Source: Methanobacteriota archaeon
GTDB lineage: Archaea > Thermoplasmatota > Thermoplasmata > RBG-16-68-12
Assembly: GCA_005878985.1 (NCBI GenBank)
Contig: VBMA01000089.1
Coordinates: 1-35,762 of the forward strand
Reading direction: 5' to 3'
Length of the DNA stretch: 35,762 bases
The position numbers and the translations under genes were made by a program. Below the pieces are notes generated by a model. The model worked only from the letters and a program-made list of their open reading frames with translations, was not told the DNA's origin and searched no databases. Shown piece after piece: positions 18,380 to 29,493 of the stretch (within the stretch, counting starts at the first letter, position 1; every line of letters begins with the position of its first letter).

Positions 18380-19516
18380 TCATCGGGTCGAACGTGTGAT
18401 GCGGCGTCGAGGTCCTCGAATCATCGATGCGTCTCGCACCGACGGGCTCGGTGCCGGCCAGAGTCGTCCCCCCGAGACGACAAGCCGGACATCGCTCGCG
18501 GAGGCTCGCAAGATCGACGCAAACCCACTCCGTCCTCCCGGAAGATCCAGGATAACGAGGTCCGCGCGCGCCCCGACGCGAATCGCCGACGTGGCATGCG
18601 GATCAGCGAGACGACGTCCTCGCAACGCCATCTCGAGGATCTCGCGCGCCGGGACGCCGCCTTTCATCCGCGCGACCCGGTACGCGAATTCCATTTCCCG
18701 CAGCAGGGACGGCGTGTTGATCATCGCGTTGTCGGTCCCCAGGTGAAGCTCAACCCCTTGTCGCAACATGCCAGGGATGTCCGGGGTCATCCCAAAGAAT
18801 GCGTTCGACCTCGGACATACGACGATCGGCACATGCGCATCGGCGCAGCGCTCGAGGTCCGCGTCCGTCGCGTGGAGCATATGGACCAGGAATGCGGGAC
18901 TCAGATCGAGGACCGCATCGATCTCCTCGCGCACTCGTTCGGAACAGTGGATCGCGAAGATTTTCTTCGCCCGTCGGGCGTCCGCGGCGAGCTTCTCAAT
19001 CGCATCGCGCGGCCAATCGATGTATGAGCTCACCGCGATCCCGTCCGAGGCCCGCAAGATCGCCGCGACTTCTCGGGGATCGTAGGATAACCCGACGGGC
19101 CGTCCGAGGGCGAGACCTTGCATGGGCATCGCCGCAAGGGCGGCGTACAGCAATTTGAGTCCATTCAGTCCTCCTTCCCGGAAGTCGGAGAATCCCGTGG
19201 TCCCGGTTCGGATCATCGTTGCCATCGCGCGTCGCATCGCGGCGATGACCGCGGCGTCCTTTGCCTTCGCGAGGACCCGGTGCTTGAGGCCATGCGGTGG
19301 GGCGACGAGCTCCTCGATCGTCCCTTTCAATTCCTGGGTCACGATCGCGTCGCCGAGGTGCGTGTGCGCGTTCCACAATCCCGGGAGGATGAGGCCCTCG
19401 GCGAGCGGGCGACGCGTCCGTCCGGAACGAATCTCCACGACGACATCTTCCTCCCATCCGACGGTCCCTTCCCGGAAGCGCTGGCCGTCGTAGAACCAGC
19501 CCGAGACGCGTTGCAC
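18380..19516 (-). CDS. Amidohydrolase-family metal-dependent hydrolase
   Basis: ILPGLWNAHTHLGDAIV, KIFAIHCSE, LGTDNAMINTPSLLREM; GTG at 19516 with TATA-like tttaaacg about 25 nt upstream. Confidence 0.85.
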   Translation of the reverse strand: MQRVSGWFYDGQRFREGTVGWEEDVVVEIRSGRTRRPLAEGLILPGLWNAHTHLGDAIVTQELKGTIEELVAPPHGLKHRVLAKAKDAAVIAAMRRAMATMIRTGTTGFSDFREGGLNGLKLLYAALAAMPMQGLALGRPVGLSYDPREVAAILRASDGIAVSSYIDWPRDAIEKLAADARRAKKIFAIHCSERVREEIDAVLDLSPAFLVHMLHATDADLERCADAHVPIVVCPRSNAFFGMTPDIPGMLRQGVELHLGTDNAMINTPSLLREMEFAYRVARMKGGVPAREILEMALRGRRLADPHATSAIRVGARADLVILDLPGGRSGFASILRASASDVRLVVSGGRLWPAPSPSVRDASMIRGPRRRITRSTR

Positions 19517-19679
19517 GGCGCGCGATGGTTGGGTCGCGTTTAAACGTTCTTCGCTTCCGGCAGATATCCTCGGAATGTTTATGGCGTGGAAGCTTTTCCT
19601 TCCGTCGGCACCACCGGAACGCAGCGGGTTGGAGCGGGAACCTCCGCCGAGCCGCCTGTGGGAAGGCGGTCGCACAAAT

Positions 19680-19722
19680 GCCGCCATAGCTCAGCCCGGC
19701 AGAGCGGCAGTTTCGTAAACTG
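19680..19722 (+). pseudogene. 5' half of tRNA-Thr(CGU), interrupted at the anticodon stem-loop; putative attL
   Basis: GCCGCCA TA GCTC AGCCCGGCA GAGC G GCAGT TTCGTAA ACTG; following sequence is not a tRNA 3' half; missing half is at 21315-21360. Confidence 0.8.
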
Positions 19723-19770
19723 TCGGGACGACCCTACAGATTCTTCACGTCTCTTCGGGCTTTCGCCGCA

Positions 19771-20568
19771 TCATTGCACTGAGCTCGGTTGAAAGTCTGT
19801 CGAGTTATTCGCCGACTCAATCCGCGCCAACCATGTGCCGAGCAGCGAACTATCCCCTTTGCGGATCATGTCTTCGATTACCCCGTAAGGGATGACTTTG
19901 ACGGGTGGGAGAAGACCGCGGGGTATGAGAATGACGTTGCCCAGTCTGGGATCCATGAACCACCGGCCCCCATAGTCGTGAATGAGAGACTCCCCAAAGT
20001 AGCTGCCCCACATCGCGAGCAACCGACCGAGCTGAACGAAAGGGGGCACGCCGGACTTTCCAACCTGGGTTAGGATGTCCGCTGCTTTCTCAAGGGACTT
20101 GACGGTGAATTCCAGGTCGACGGAGAAGTCTAGCTTCGCCAGCGTAATGACCTGCGCGGCGTCATACGCGTGGGCGGAATCCGGTATCTCAACAAGCTGC
20201 TGTCCCTCCCGAGCGAGAACCTCCGCGGTCCCGAGGTACCGGGTGAACCGGGATGAATCTGGCAGACCTCCTCCGGTCGGGTTGCCGTACAACGTGACGA
20301 AAGCACCCCCTATGTACTGACGCATACCCGGAAGCCGTGAGGGCGGAAGTGTTTCAAGGTCCACCAAAACGAACCTCGGATCTGCCGCGTGGACCCTAAG
20401 TAGATCCTGTGACGGGTCGTCAAGTTCGACAAAAAATGCCGTCCCTCCATCGATCTTCGATTCTGTCGAGTCACGCCAAGCTCCTCTGAGGAGGACGCCC
20501 CCAAGCTGGCTCTCGCCTGGAAGGGGGGCTAAAATAGTGTTCCCATGTGGGACATCGGGTGAGGTCAT
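19771..20568 (-). CDS. Hypothetical protein, sole clear ORF of the putative element (no recognisable integrase)
   Basis: 265 aa, e.g. QLGRLLAMWGSYFGESLIHDYGGRWFMDPRLGNVILIPRGLLPPVKVIPYGVIEDMIRKGDSSLLGTWL; frame open further upstream without a clear start codon. Confidence 0.6.
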   Translation of the reverse strand: MTSPDVPHGNTILAPLPGESQLGGVLLRGAWRDSTESKIDGGTAFFVELDDPSQDLLRVHAADPRFVLVDLETLPPSRLPGMRQYIGGAFVTLYGNPTGGGLPDSSRFTRYLGTAEVLAREGQQLVEIPDSAHAYDAAQVITLAKLDFSVDLEFTVKSLEKAADILTQVGKSGVPPFVQLGRLLAMWGSYFGESLIHDYGGRWFMDPRLGNVILIPRGLLPPVKVIPYGVIEDMIRKGDSSLLGTWLARIESANNSTDFQPSSVQ

Positions 20569-20813
20569 CCTACTCGCTACTGGGTCGTCAAGGACCTCAA
20601 CGAACCGCCGCCGGATATTGATTTCTAGCTCGCCGACAACTGACGAGTAGCCCTAAGCATAGTCCCGTAGGACTCTTCGAGCTCAATGAGCTGGTAGCCT
20701 CCTCACGCGACCAGTCATCACCCCAGATAGGTTTACTCGGGGCCCGGTCCACTGGTGCCAGCATCAAACTCATGGGCTATTTTTGGCCCGCTGATCTCTC
20801 CGCTAATGGGTCG

Positions 20814-20885
20814 ATCTGATCGCCCCGCCAGAGGGCGTTCAGAAGAAAAGTAGGCAATCTGATCGTCCCGCCACGAGGCGTTCAG
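20814..20885. repeat. Two 29-bp imperfect direct repeats (43-bp period), each with a CGCC-NNNN-GGCG stem
   Basis: ATCTGATCGCCCCGCCAGAGGGCGTTCAG (20814-20842) and ATCTGATCGTCCCGCCACGAGGCGTTCAG (20857-20885). Confidence 0.7.
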
Positions 20886-21178
20886 GCCGGGACTAGGCCT
20901 CTGGCACGACGGTGGCGAGTCCCCGCCCTTGAATCGTGTAGTCCTGACGGGTCGTAATCCGAAAATCGGTATTGAACGGGACTCGATAGTGGGCAAGTCT
21001 GGTCCCCACTCGGTCCATACTTCCCGAGTATCGAAACTAGGTCGACCCCCGTGGGAGCCCGCCAAGGACCTCGGCGTTCTGGTCTCGGACGGCCCCGCGT
21101 CGTGGAGAGCAGCGCCCTGGTCCAGCGGCTCCTCGTGCCGTAGCCTTGATAACCACCGCAGGATTCTGGGCGACTTGC

Positions 21179-21282
21179 GCCGCCTTAGCTCAGCCCAGCA
21201 GAGCGGCAGTTTCGTATGCGCAGGCGGAAGACGCTTGCACCGAAGGAACTGCAGGTCGAGGGAGCAAAGCCCTCAGGCGGCT
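21179..21282 (+). tRNA. tRNA-Thr(CGU)-like gene with a 30-nt BHB intron (21217-21246) at position 37/38
   Basis: Acceptor GCCGCCT/AGGCGGC, D stem GCTC/GAGC, anticodon stem GCAGT/ACTGC, T stem GAGGG/CCCTC all pair; BHB: helix TTCG/CGAA, bulges TA^T and GG^A, intron hairpin GCGCAGGCG-GAAGA-CGCTTGCAC. Confidence 0.85.
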
Positions 21283-21314
21283 CCTCTCAAACTTGTGGGT
21301 GCGCGGCCAAACGA

Positions 21315-21360
21315 CAGTTTCGTAAACTGCATGTCGGGGGATCGAAGCCCTCTGGCGGCT
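21315..21360 (+). pseudogene. 3' half of tRNA-Thr(CGU); putative attR
   Basis: CAGTTTCGTAA ACTGC ATGTC GGGGG ATCGAAG CCCTC TGGCGGC T; TGGCGGC pairs with GCCGCCA of the half at 19680. Confidence 0.8.
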
Positions 21361-21409: not shown

Positions 21410-22048
21410 TCATTTCACTTCTTGGCGTCGCCAGAGCCGATCGATCCGACCGGGCAAGATGAAGAACACCGGATAGAGCACGTACGCCCCGAGGCTGAGG
21501 ACGGGGTCGACGAAAGCGAGCAGGATGGCCGCCGCAGAGAAGCCCGGTCCCATGAGCATCCGGCGGCGGGCCAGCCAGATGAAACGGTCGTTGAGGCCGG
21601 CTTCCACGAGGTGATGATGGAACGTGGCGTACCAGATCGCGAGGAACATGAACATCTGGATTGCCAGGAGGTTGAGCCCGTAGGCCACGATGGTCACTGG
21701 CAGGAACGGGTGATGTCCCAGGAGGGCCGTCGTGAGCGGAAGCAGGCCGACGAAGAGGAGGAAGACGTTGTTCAACCAGATGAACGTCCGATCCGTGCGC
21801 TTCACGACTTGGAATCCAACGTGATGGCCGACCCAGAAGACCCCGAGCGTGACGAAGCTGAGCGCGTAGGTCAGGACGCCGGTCACGACGTCCTCCAGGG
21901 CCGGAAGGTCCTGTTGTGCCGGTCCCGTGATGTAGGGGATCGTCAGGCTGAGCCCGAGGACCGTCATCACGGCTCCGAAGATGCCGTCCGTCAGGGCCTC
22001 GACCCTTGTTTTTCCGAGTCCTGTGACCGAGCCGCTTCGCGCGCTCAT
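21410..22048 (-). CDS. TMEM175 / DUF1211-family membrane protein (potassium-channel-like)
   Basis: TRVEALTDGIFGAVMTVLGLSLTIP..YALSFVTLGVFWVGHHVGFQVVKRTDRTFIWLNNVFLLFVGLLPLTT. Confidence 0.9.
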   Translation of the reverse strand: MSARSGSVTGLGKTRVEALTDGIFGAVMTVLGLSLTIPYITGPAQQDLPALEDVVTGVLTYALSFVTLGVFWVGHHVGFQVVKRTDRTFIWLNNVFLLFVGLLPLTTALLGHHPFLPVTIVAYGLNLLAIQMFMFLAIWYATFHHHLVEAGLNDRFIWLARRRMLMGPGFSAAAILLAFVDPVLSLGAYVLYPVFFILPGRIDRLWRRQEVK

Positions 22049-27333: not shown

Positions 27334-29493
27334 ATGGGCCGAGGCCACCGAGGGAGCCTCACGCCTCAGGACCTCCTCCTGCCAGAGGGAAAACTCATCC
27401 GCACTACGCGGGGCGGTCCTAGCGCGCTCAAGCAGCTCCTCCTCGACCTGAAGAAATATTCATTTTCCGGCTACGTCCGAACGGTTCGGAGCGGGGCCGG
27501 CAGGCGGGCCGAAGGGATCGTGCTCCTGCGCGGCGGAAACCCGGAGGCCAGCTTGTACCATCGGGACGGCACTCAGGACCGGGGCCGGAGCGCCCTGAAG
27601 AAGGTGTGGCAGGACTCGTACGACGAGTCGTGCGTCTTGGAGCTCCACGCCCGCGTGGACATGGACGGCCTCGTTCGGGAATACGCGAATGCGATCCTCG
27701 AGCGGCCCGCGAAGGTCGTCAAGAAGACGAAGATCCCGCAGACGATGGAACGATCCGAGATCGAGAGGCAGATTCGGTCGTGGAAGGACCGTGGGTACGA
27801 CGTGTCCTCCGTCGACTCGAACCTCGATGCCGAGCCGTCCATCCTCGCGGCGTCCGTCGTCGCGATGCGCGACGGGGTGAAGAAGGCCGAGGCGGTGGGC
27901 GAGATCCTCTCCGGTCTCGATGTGTCCGGGTTCGAGTCGCGCGCCGCGATCCTCCGAGAGAAACTCAAGGATCCCGTGCGACACCCGGACATCGACACGG
28001 AGGTCGAGAGCCTCCGCGATGCCGTGGAAAGCCTGCGCCAGATCGAGGCGCGTCGCCAGGCCGAGATGGAGCGAGGCCGGGATTCCCAGGCGCGGACACG
28101 AAAGGTCTTGGACCTCGTGATGAAACAGCAGCAGGCGCTGCGCCCCGAGGGTGGTCCGTATTCCACGGAGGACGTCGCGCGGAAGGTGCTCGAAGAATCG
28201 ATGCCGGCCCGGGATGCGGCGACGAACCTCGTCCAGATGTGCACGTTCGAGTCGTTCATCGTCGGCGAGAGCAACCGGTTCGCGCACGGCGCAGCGGTCG
28301 CGGTCGCGAAGCAACCCGCGAAGGAATACAATCCGCTCCTCATCACCTCGGGTCCGGGCCTCGGGAAGACGCATCTCCTGCACGCCATCGGGAACTACAT
28401 CCTGGCCCATTCGAACGAATCGAAGGTGCTGTACCTGACCTGCGAATCGTTCGCCTCAAGCTATACGAGCGCGAAGGAAGTGGGGACCCTCTCCGCGTTC
28501 CGGGACCGCATCCGTGGCATGGATTGCCTGATGATCGATGACATCCAGTTCCTGAGCGGCATGCCGGAGATTCACGAGGAACTGTTCCACACGTTCAACG
28601 ATCTGCATGACAAGGAGAAGCAGATCGTCCTGGCAAGCGATCGGCCCCCCAAGGCGATCCCGAACCTCGACGACCGCCTCGTCTCCCGGTTCGAATCGGG
28701 CCTCGTGGCAGGCATCGAACCTCCGGACCTCTTGATGCGGGTCACGATCCTCGAACGCCGCGCCCGCGACGAGAACGTCTCCATCGAAGGCGAAGTCTTG
28801 ACATGCATCGCGAATCTCGTCGACAACAATGTCCGAGAGCTCGGCGGGGCGTTCAACCGAGTCGTCGCGTTCTCCTCCTTGATGAATCGTCCGATCACGC
28901 AGGATCTCGCCCGCGAAGTCTTGTCCGGGGCGACCGTCGAGCCGTCGGCGGAACCGATCCCGTCGCCGGTGTCAGAGCGGACCGCGCCGGAGGAGAGAGT
29001 CCGGCAGGAAGTTCCCACGACGGCGAACCACGAACTCACACCAGGCCGCAGCTACCTGATAGAGGAGGAACGACCCGCGAAGGCGTTCCGGCTCTTGACG
29101 GATTTCCTCGGTGGCGGGGGCGGCGGCCTGGTCATCAGCCGGACGAACCCGAAACGCGTCCGGCAGGCGCACGACCTCGCGACCGCGCGCGTCCTGTGGC
29201 TCACGGACCGCGAGGGGTCGGCGGAGGAGACGATCGCGCCGGCCCTGGAGCGGCTCGTCTACGAGATCGAGGACTTCATGGGCAAGCAGCCCCGGGGCGC
29301 GATCCTCCTGGACGGGATCGAGTACCTTGTTTCGAACAATTCGTTCGACGCGGTCCTGATGTTCGTCCGGCGGCTGCTCGACGCGATCTCCGAGAGCCGA
29401 TACGCGTTCATCATCTCCCTCGGCCCTGCGACGCTGAAAGACCAGGAGCTCAAGGTGCTCGAGCGGGAGATGGAAGTGATCCGCTATCCGTAA
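27334..29493 (+). CDS. DnaA-type AAA+ ATPase fused to a C-terminal DUF835 domain
   Basis: TFESFIVGESNRFAHGAAVAVAKQPAKEYNPLLITSGPGLGKTHLLHAIGNYI, CLMIDDIQFLSG, IVLASDRPPKAIPNLDDRLVSRFESGLVAGIEPPD, VRELGGAFNRVVAFSSL; C-terminal RSYLIEEERPAKAFRLLTDFL..LLDGIEYLVSNNSFDAVLMFVRRLLDAISESRYAFIISLGPATLKDQELKVLEREMEVI. Confidence 0.9.
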   Translation: MGRGHRGSLTPQDLLLPEGKLIRTTRGGPSALKQLLLDLKKYSFSGYVRTVRSGAGRRAEGIVLLRGGNPEASLYHRDGTQDRGRSALKKVWQDSYDESCVLELHARVDMDGLVREYANAILERPAKVVKKTKIPQTMERSEIERQIRSWKDRGYDVSSVDSNLDAEPSILAASVVAMRDGVKKAEAVGEILSGLDVSGFESRAAILREKLKDPVRHPDIDTEVESLRDAVESLRQIEARRQAEMERGRDSQARTRKVLDLVMKQQQALRPEGGPYSTEDVARKVLEESMPARDAATNLVQMCTFESFIVGESNRFAHGAAVAVAKQPAKEYNPLLITSGPGLGKTHLLHAIGNYILAHSNESKVLYLTCESFASSYTSAKEVGTLSAFRDRIRGMDCLMIDDIQFLSGMPEIHEELFHTFNDLHDKEKQIVLASDRPPKAIPNLDDRLVSRFESGLVAGIEPPDLLMRVTILERRARDENVSIEGEVLTCIANLVDNNVRELGGAFNRVVAFSSLMNRPITQDLAREVLSGATVEPSAEPIPSPVSERTAPEERVRQEVPTTANHELTPGRSYLIEEERPAKAFRLLTDFLGGGGGGLVISRTNPKRVRQAHDLATARVLWLTDREGSAEETIAPALERLVYEIEDFMGKQPRGAILLDGIEYLVSNNSFDAVLMFVRRLLDAISESRYAFIISLGPATLKDQELKVLEREMEVIRYP

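Follow-up and report, generated by a model that had tools for sequence, protein, structure and literature searches.

The window analyzed here, the whole 35,762-bp stretch of contig VBMA01000089.1, comes from the metagenome-assembled genome of a soil archaeon (2.1 Mb in 200 contigs, 91.1% complete). It contains a tRNA-Thr(CGU) gene that is cut exactly in its anticodon loop by an insert, and the insert carries a complete tRNA-Thr(CGU) gene of its own (21179-21282, + strand), interrupted by an intron and placed just within the right end. We refer to the first as the resident gene and to the second as the cargo gene. A 15-bp direct repeat, CAGTTTCGTAAACTG, lies at the ends of the insert and is found in this assembly only at 19708-19722 and 21315-21329. 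For comparison we used genomes of the same genus, labeled with numbers such as G001, and the wider order and class for one of the resident alleles (allele B, described below). The parts of the split locus are as follows.

19680..19722, + strand: 5' half of the interrupted resident gene (tRNA-Thr(CGU), allele A); same sequence as the intact copy in G015, G010, G006, and G002
19708..19722, + strand: left attachment core (attL), CAGTTTCGTAAACTG, in the anticodon arm
19723..21314, no strand: inserted DNA between the core copies, 1,592 bp; missing from the empty site in G015, whose flanks are 92-93% identical to those of the window
21179..21216, + strand: 5' exon of the cargo tRNA-Thr(CGU)
21217..21246, + strand: 30-nt intron at position 37/38; 29 of its 30 bases are common to the resident intron of G012
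21247..21282, + strand: 3' exon of the cargo tRNA-Thr(CGU)
21283..21314, + strand: right end of the insert up to the core; common to G001 and G016
21315..21329, + strand: right attachment core (attR), CAGTTTCGTAAACTG
21315..21360, + strand: 3' half of the interrupted resident gene (tRNA-Thr(CGU), allele A); one mismatch to G015 (search match 21301-21360)

The nearest relative, G015, has an empty site with a single intact, intronless tRNA-Thr(CGU) gene, and the two window halves, once rejoined, give this gene with one mismatch. Allele A is also intact in G010, G006, and G002. In the window the tRNA is rebuilt at neither junction: the host halves are stranded on each side of the insert, each continuous with its own flank, and no restoration of the target of the kind left by reconstituting tRNA islands (SSV type, pNOB8 type) was found at a junction. 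On the sequence evidence, this is a precise insertion into tRNA-Thr(CGU). Joined in a circle, the ends of the insert would give the palindrome CGACAGTTT-CGT-AAACTGTCG, as expected for the core of a tyrosine recombinase. A cmscan match at 21303-21360 (21.9 bits, below the cut-off) was rejected as a further candidate; it is the host 3' half with an unrelated leader.

Once spliced, the cargo gene gives a 74-mer that ARAGORN calls tRNA-Thr(cgt), with the acceptor, D, anticodon, and T stems all paired. Its intron can be drawn as a bulge-helix-bulge (BHB) with a TTCG/CGAA helix, bulges TA^T and GG^A, and an intron hairpin. Predicted splicing at 37/38 would leave a standard tRNA, as for canonical archaeal intron-containing tRNAs; the spliced call and the structure check thus agree with the first-pass annotation, which had described such a gene from the letters alone. 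The intron and the odd T loop explain why the unspliced gene is missed: no tRNA is reported there by ARAGORN or by Rfam at gathering scores. Relative to G012, paired changes at 7-66 and 50-64 preserve the acceptor and T stems. In the cargo tRNA, the near-universal tertiary contact G18-U55 has changed on both sides at once, to A18 and G55, while G19-C56 is kept; the cargo copies in G001 (L053) and G016 (L068) have the same A18/G55.

The assembly holds 35 chromosomal tRNA genes besides the cargo gene, namely Thr(UGU), Thr(GGU), and 33 further ones, and no other intact Thr(CGU) gene is among them. The cargo gene is therefore the sole intact copy in this 91%-complete assembly, in keeping with the replacement role first proposed for it. 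ACG accounts for 57% of the Thr codons in six window genes. Three of the 33 further tRNAs have predicted introns, which implies working splicing in this genome. Compensation for the destroyed host gene by the cargo tRNA is well supported by these data, and we infer that the cargo tRNA is expressed and spliced.

The same cargo gene recurs elsewhere in the genus. In G001, whose flanks are about 75% identical to those of the window, it differs by a single change, in the intron, and occupies the same end of a different insert of ~1 kb. The host halves there belong to another allele, B (GCCACCG...CGGTGGC), and when rejoined they equal the G005 gene exactly. Element and host have only the 11 bp CAGTTTCGTAA in common in G001, which confines strand exchange to these 11 bp around the anticodon. 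For G001, ARAGORN proposes a gene that runs from the cargo 5' exon to the host 3' half across a 108-nt intron; we rejected this call, as the proper 3' exon and the BHB are present. In G016, where the flanks are again about 75% identical, the identical cargo tRNA comes immediately after the native promoter; next are the same right end and an allele-B 3' half with two mutations. The insert has been lost here and its tRNA kept, and of the resident gene only a decaying 3' half remains. Collapse of an insert via recombination between the like 5' halves would leave this layout.

Overall, the cassette of the window is 99-100% identical to those of G001 and G016 despite the low identity of the flanks, which points to recent transfer, and its recurrence in both genomes excludes a chance origin. 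The matching junctions also argue against the contig being a chimera of strains. G008 has a left end of the G001 type at 99% identity, though G005, with flanks 95% identical to those of G008, has an empty site. Deletion in G008 has removed the right end along with the tRNA and the 3' half, and tRNA-Thr(CGU) was not found anywhere in this 74%-complete genome, suggesting that it was lost after the insertion. In G008 (L060, 861-1147) the left end of the G001-like insert runs directly into a truncated TMEM175 gene. The alignments thus point to at least three separate insertions at one gene (the window, G001, and G008). From sequence comparison alone, the cargo tRNA is mobile between genomes, and its independent insertion into two host alleles bears out the earlier view of the intron-bearing gene as cargo.

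An older layer of replacement is visible beside the split gene. It is listed here together with the remaining features of the insert and its flanks.

18380..19630, - strand: amidohydrolase-like gene, left chromosomal flank; matches PF01979 and lies beside tRNA-Thr(CGU) in most genomes of the genus
19578..19584, + strand: native tRNA promoter, TATA-like box TTTATGG; aligned in G005, G018, G002, G006, G010, G015, and this genome
19611..19637, + strand: decayed 5' half of tRNA-Thr(CGU) allele B, the probable ancestral allele; local alignment score 34, best of 300 shuffles 26
19771..20568, - strand: P0001, a 265-aa open reading frame (ORF), cargo of the insert; without a Pfam or PHROGs match
21096..21178, + strand: leader common to the G001 insert, with the end of a truncated ORF (..ALVxRxLVP* in translation) and then a promoter-like region; 90% identity to G001
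21144..21154, + strand: weak TATA-like box of the cargo tRNA, CCTTGATAACC; score 4.8
21410..22048, - strand: TMEM175-like channel gene, right chromosomal flank; PF06736, E 6e-22

In this genome as well as in G015, G010, G006, and G002, the native promoter is directly followed not by allele A but by a decayed allele-B 5' half, with alignment scores of 34-48, where shuffled sequences reached at most 25-30. G010 has, in addition, a decayed 3' half of allele B downstream (score 38 versus 27). Related GCCAC[C/T]G genes are found across the order and class; thus, allele B is probably ancestral. Allele A looks like an earlier, intronless replacement that was itself hit later in the lineage of the window. 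Since allele-B remnants flank allele A, at least two replacements of the gene have taken place. U54 is already exchanged for A54 in allele A.

P0001 has a single relative (34%), in G003, and among the ORFs checked there neither an integrase nor a tRNA lies close by; the fold of P0001 was not predictable (pLDDT, the predicted local distance difference test score, 41) and was not used. No viral genes are present in the insert, and searches of IMG/VR and phage records with att, intron, and P0001 patterns returned no complete element with an integrase. The window and G001 have different left ends and different cargo ORFs, and a complete element has thus not come to light. Either the element is non-autonomous or degraded, or its integrase lies in the missing part of the genome; the insert is possibly the remnant of an integrase-encoding element. 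A tyrosine integrase would have acted in trans or have since been lost. Integrases elsewhere in the genus do not adjoin tRNA-Thr(CGU).

Several further observations concern the insert and its surroundings. A 34-bp stretch of the insert (20891-20924) is 91-97% identical to a site present once or twice in most genomes of the genus; its counterpart in this genome (C73:11004-11037) seems to be where a coding gene terminates (3' end, ..GLATVVPEA*). The insert also has a 29-bp direct repeat (86%), at 20814-20842 and 20857-20885, upstream of the cargo tRNA. The start codon of the amidohydrolase-like gene was placed by us within a longer ORF and is putative. In G006 (L194, about 450-2650), a 2.2-kb insertion with a 623-aa secreted-looking ORF separates the intact tRNA from the TMEM175 gene. 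Elsewhere in the assembly, 3'-end fragments of tRNA-Ala(GGC) and tRNA-Leu(CAA) (L017 and L027, on C167 and C113) lie 0.6 and 0.9 kb downstream of the intact genes, a pattern as left by ordinary target-rebuilding integrations. Positions 27334-29493 of the window encode a 719-aa protein in which a DnaA-type ATPase domain is joined to DUF835, in an archaeal genome.

We consider the following sequence of events likely. Via an 11-15 bp core, a small integrative element would recombine with the only tRNA-Thr(CGU) gene of its host, in the anticodon arm; this core is too short for the tRNA to be rebuilt at either junction. The element's own whole tRNA-Thr(CGU), just inside its right end, would then take over ACG decoding. 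The 30-nt BHB intron would part the half-sites of the core and make this copy a poor target for another round, while archaeal splicing would still yield a normal mature tRNA. Later, the insert may collapse via the like 5' halves, so that the native promoter comes to precede the intron-bearing gene, the arrangement seen in G016. The outcome would be a host tRNA replaced and an intron gained.

Some findings weigh against this scenario. There is no integrase in the 1.6-kb insert and no PF00589 match in the assembly, and the inserts of the window and G001 differ at the left as described above. The cargo promoter is weak: its box stands at the proper distance from the tRNA, and its score is attained by 1.5% of random 60-mers from the window and falls slightly under that of the weakest of the 35 chromosomal tRNAs. 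With the same tRNA promoter matrix the native box scores 11.1 in G016 and G001. For the isolated arm, the BHB is not the fold of lowest energy (-19.3 kcal/mol versus -23.4 for the free minimum, a different fold); energy alone is no proof, and the modeled BHB is plausible. A18 and G55 depart from near-universal bases. Finally, the apparent loss in G008, a 74%-complete genome, means that tRNA-Thr(CGU) may be dispensable.

The cargo gene keeps the left 10 bp (CAGTTTCGTA) of the 11-15 bp core, and the right arm AACTG is shifted by 30 bp, so that the intron separates the half-sites. An integrase needing both half-sites would likely not use the intron-bearing gene, and protection by the intron is plausible. 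The first-pass annotation had called this copy integration-proof, with the att site gone; the intron does split the core, but with 10 bp remaining the wording was too strong. The same annotation had seen a possible addiction strategy. This idea fails because both host halves and both cores are present and clean excision would restore the host tRNA; moreover, G016 lost the insert yet retained the cargo tRNA. Nor is an intron-bearing copy confined to split loci, since G009, G012, and G014 have one without an insert. In G012 and G014, the resident gene at its native place has an intron almost identical to that of the cargo gene (29/30 and 27/30 bases), and the element probably took its tRNA from an intron-bearing host of this sort. 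G009 has a different 25-nt intron at the same position (L061, 2162-2260), unrelated to that of the cargo gene, and its sister G003 has none.

Going one step further, a lineage of elements may be competing over a single tRNA gene, which is destroyed while a replacement is provided, in the order B, then intronless A, then intron-bearing E. The intron would be the latest step in this series, giving resistance to the next invader. We advance this only tentatively. Insertion and compensation could also have proceeded as described with the intron incidental, captured with whichever donor allele was at hand and offering no protection. We take this seriously, short of thinking it probable. In its favor are the resident introns of G012 and G014, the 10 bp of core that the cargo gene retains, and the lack of an intron in the older replacement, allele A. 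Against it, the intron has shifted the half-site on the right by 30 bp, without an intron the cargo gene would present a full attB of its own beside attP, and no split intron-bearing copy is seen in the genus, though only six such genes are known.

Other explanations fare less well. The cargo copy could be a decaying pseudogene, with ACG read by tRNA-Thr(UGU); A18/G55 in place of G18/U55, the weak promoter, and the seeming lack of the gene in G008 fit this idea. We think it improbable given that all stems are paired and bear paired changes, that the copies in the window and G016 are 100% identical across species with ~75% identical flanks, and that the cargo gene of G016 is the only copy found there, behind the native promoter and adjacent to a decaying host half. 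An intron gain of the Caldiarchaeum type, in which an intron-bearing attP recombines with an intronless attB to rebuild one tRNA and displace a fragment, is suggested by the 5' fragment, the similar size of the insert, and an intron-bearing tRNA-Thr in the same order as reported (PMC3293823). It is very unlikely here, as both host halves are present and the intron lies in a third, complete gene inside the element rather than in a rebuilt junction tRNA, which contradicts this model in the window and in G001. That the outer halves form a working split tRNA joined by trans-splicing is scarcely credible: the trailer of the 5' half can pair with the leader of the 3' half (AAACTGTCG/CGACAGTTT), but such pairing is what a palindromic core gives when it stands duplicated at the two ends, an internal loop of 3x3 (CGT/CGT) replaces any bulge-helix-bulge or TTCG/CGAA helix, and G016 lacks the 5' half and has a decaying 3' half.

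Replacement of the resident tRNA by an element-borne, intron-bearing copy would extend a principle from bacterial phages to archaea. Several genomes together document the transfer between species of an archaeal tRNA gene, complete and with its intron, by an element that destroys the resident counterpart; the empty and filled sites, the product of collapse, and the older layer can all be seen. The case also makes the purpose of archaeal tRNA introns directly testable. Were the competition between elements real, archaeal tRNA introns would spread as by-products of element rivalry rather than as host defense. The first-pass annotation took the configuration to be undescribed. The principle is in fact known from bacterial phages (PMC10865867, PMC8631192), and element-borne introns have been proposed in archaea (PMC3293823); a form that is archaeal, relies on an intron, and recurs in series is to our knowledge new, and we found no earlier description of it in the literature searched, subscription papers lying mostly outside it.

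Archaeal tRNA-targeting elements with SSV-type or other tyrosine integrases (PMC8371274) likewise use a tRNA target and the dyad symmetry of the anticodon arm as core, but they restore the target gene at one junction. At the tRNA-Thr(GGU) locus of Caldiarchaeum, elements were proposed to bring introns within attP and so keep out further elements (PMC3293823; repeated in the review PMC8371274). That locus also is an archaeal tRNA-Thr gene, with a 5' tRNA fragment on one side of a ~1.8-kb insert and an intron-bearing tRNA on the other. There, however, the intron lies within attP, one gene is rebuilt, and the insert holds a recombinase, whereas here the halves are stranded, a third complete gene is cargo, and replacement is layered. 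The hypothesis of Randau and Soll, in the form in which it is cited (PMC4390854, PMC3293823), holds that archaeal tRNA introns and splits protect against integration; in both cases an intron interrupts the target, as host defense in the cited form and in an element-delivered gene here. In the Rhizobium phage vTRX32-1 group, the host tRNA-Leu is broken at a 12-bp motif, and a phage tRNA-Leu without this motif takes its place; a block to super-integration was suggested (PMC8631192). The motif is simply missing from that phage tRNA, while in our case the core is interrupted by a splicable intron.

The closest likeness is to tRNA-dependent lysogeny, in which temperate Actinobacteria phages (mycobacteriophage Fionnbharth and others) enter tRNA genes via ~10-bp cores without rebuilding them and need a carried same-isotype tRNA for lysogeny (PMC10865867). 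Shared features are integration in the anticodon region, a short core (15 bp in the window and 11 bp in G001), no rebuilt tRNA at either junction, and a complete same-isotype tRNA on the element. We do not class the insert as a member, because a tyrosine integrase and a temperate virus were looked for in it and not found. Those phages are bacterial and temperate, encode an integrase, and carry an intronless tRNA; here the host is an archaeon, the insert is small and integrase-less, the cargo has a BHB intron, and collapse leaves the cargo gene as the resident. The best reading of the locus is thus an archaeal counterpart of bacteriophage tRNA-dependent lysogeny, in which an intron splits the att site in the cargo gene.
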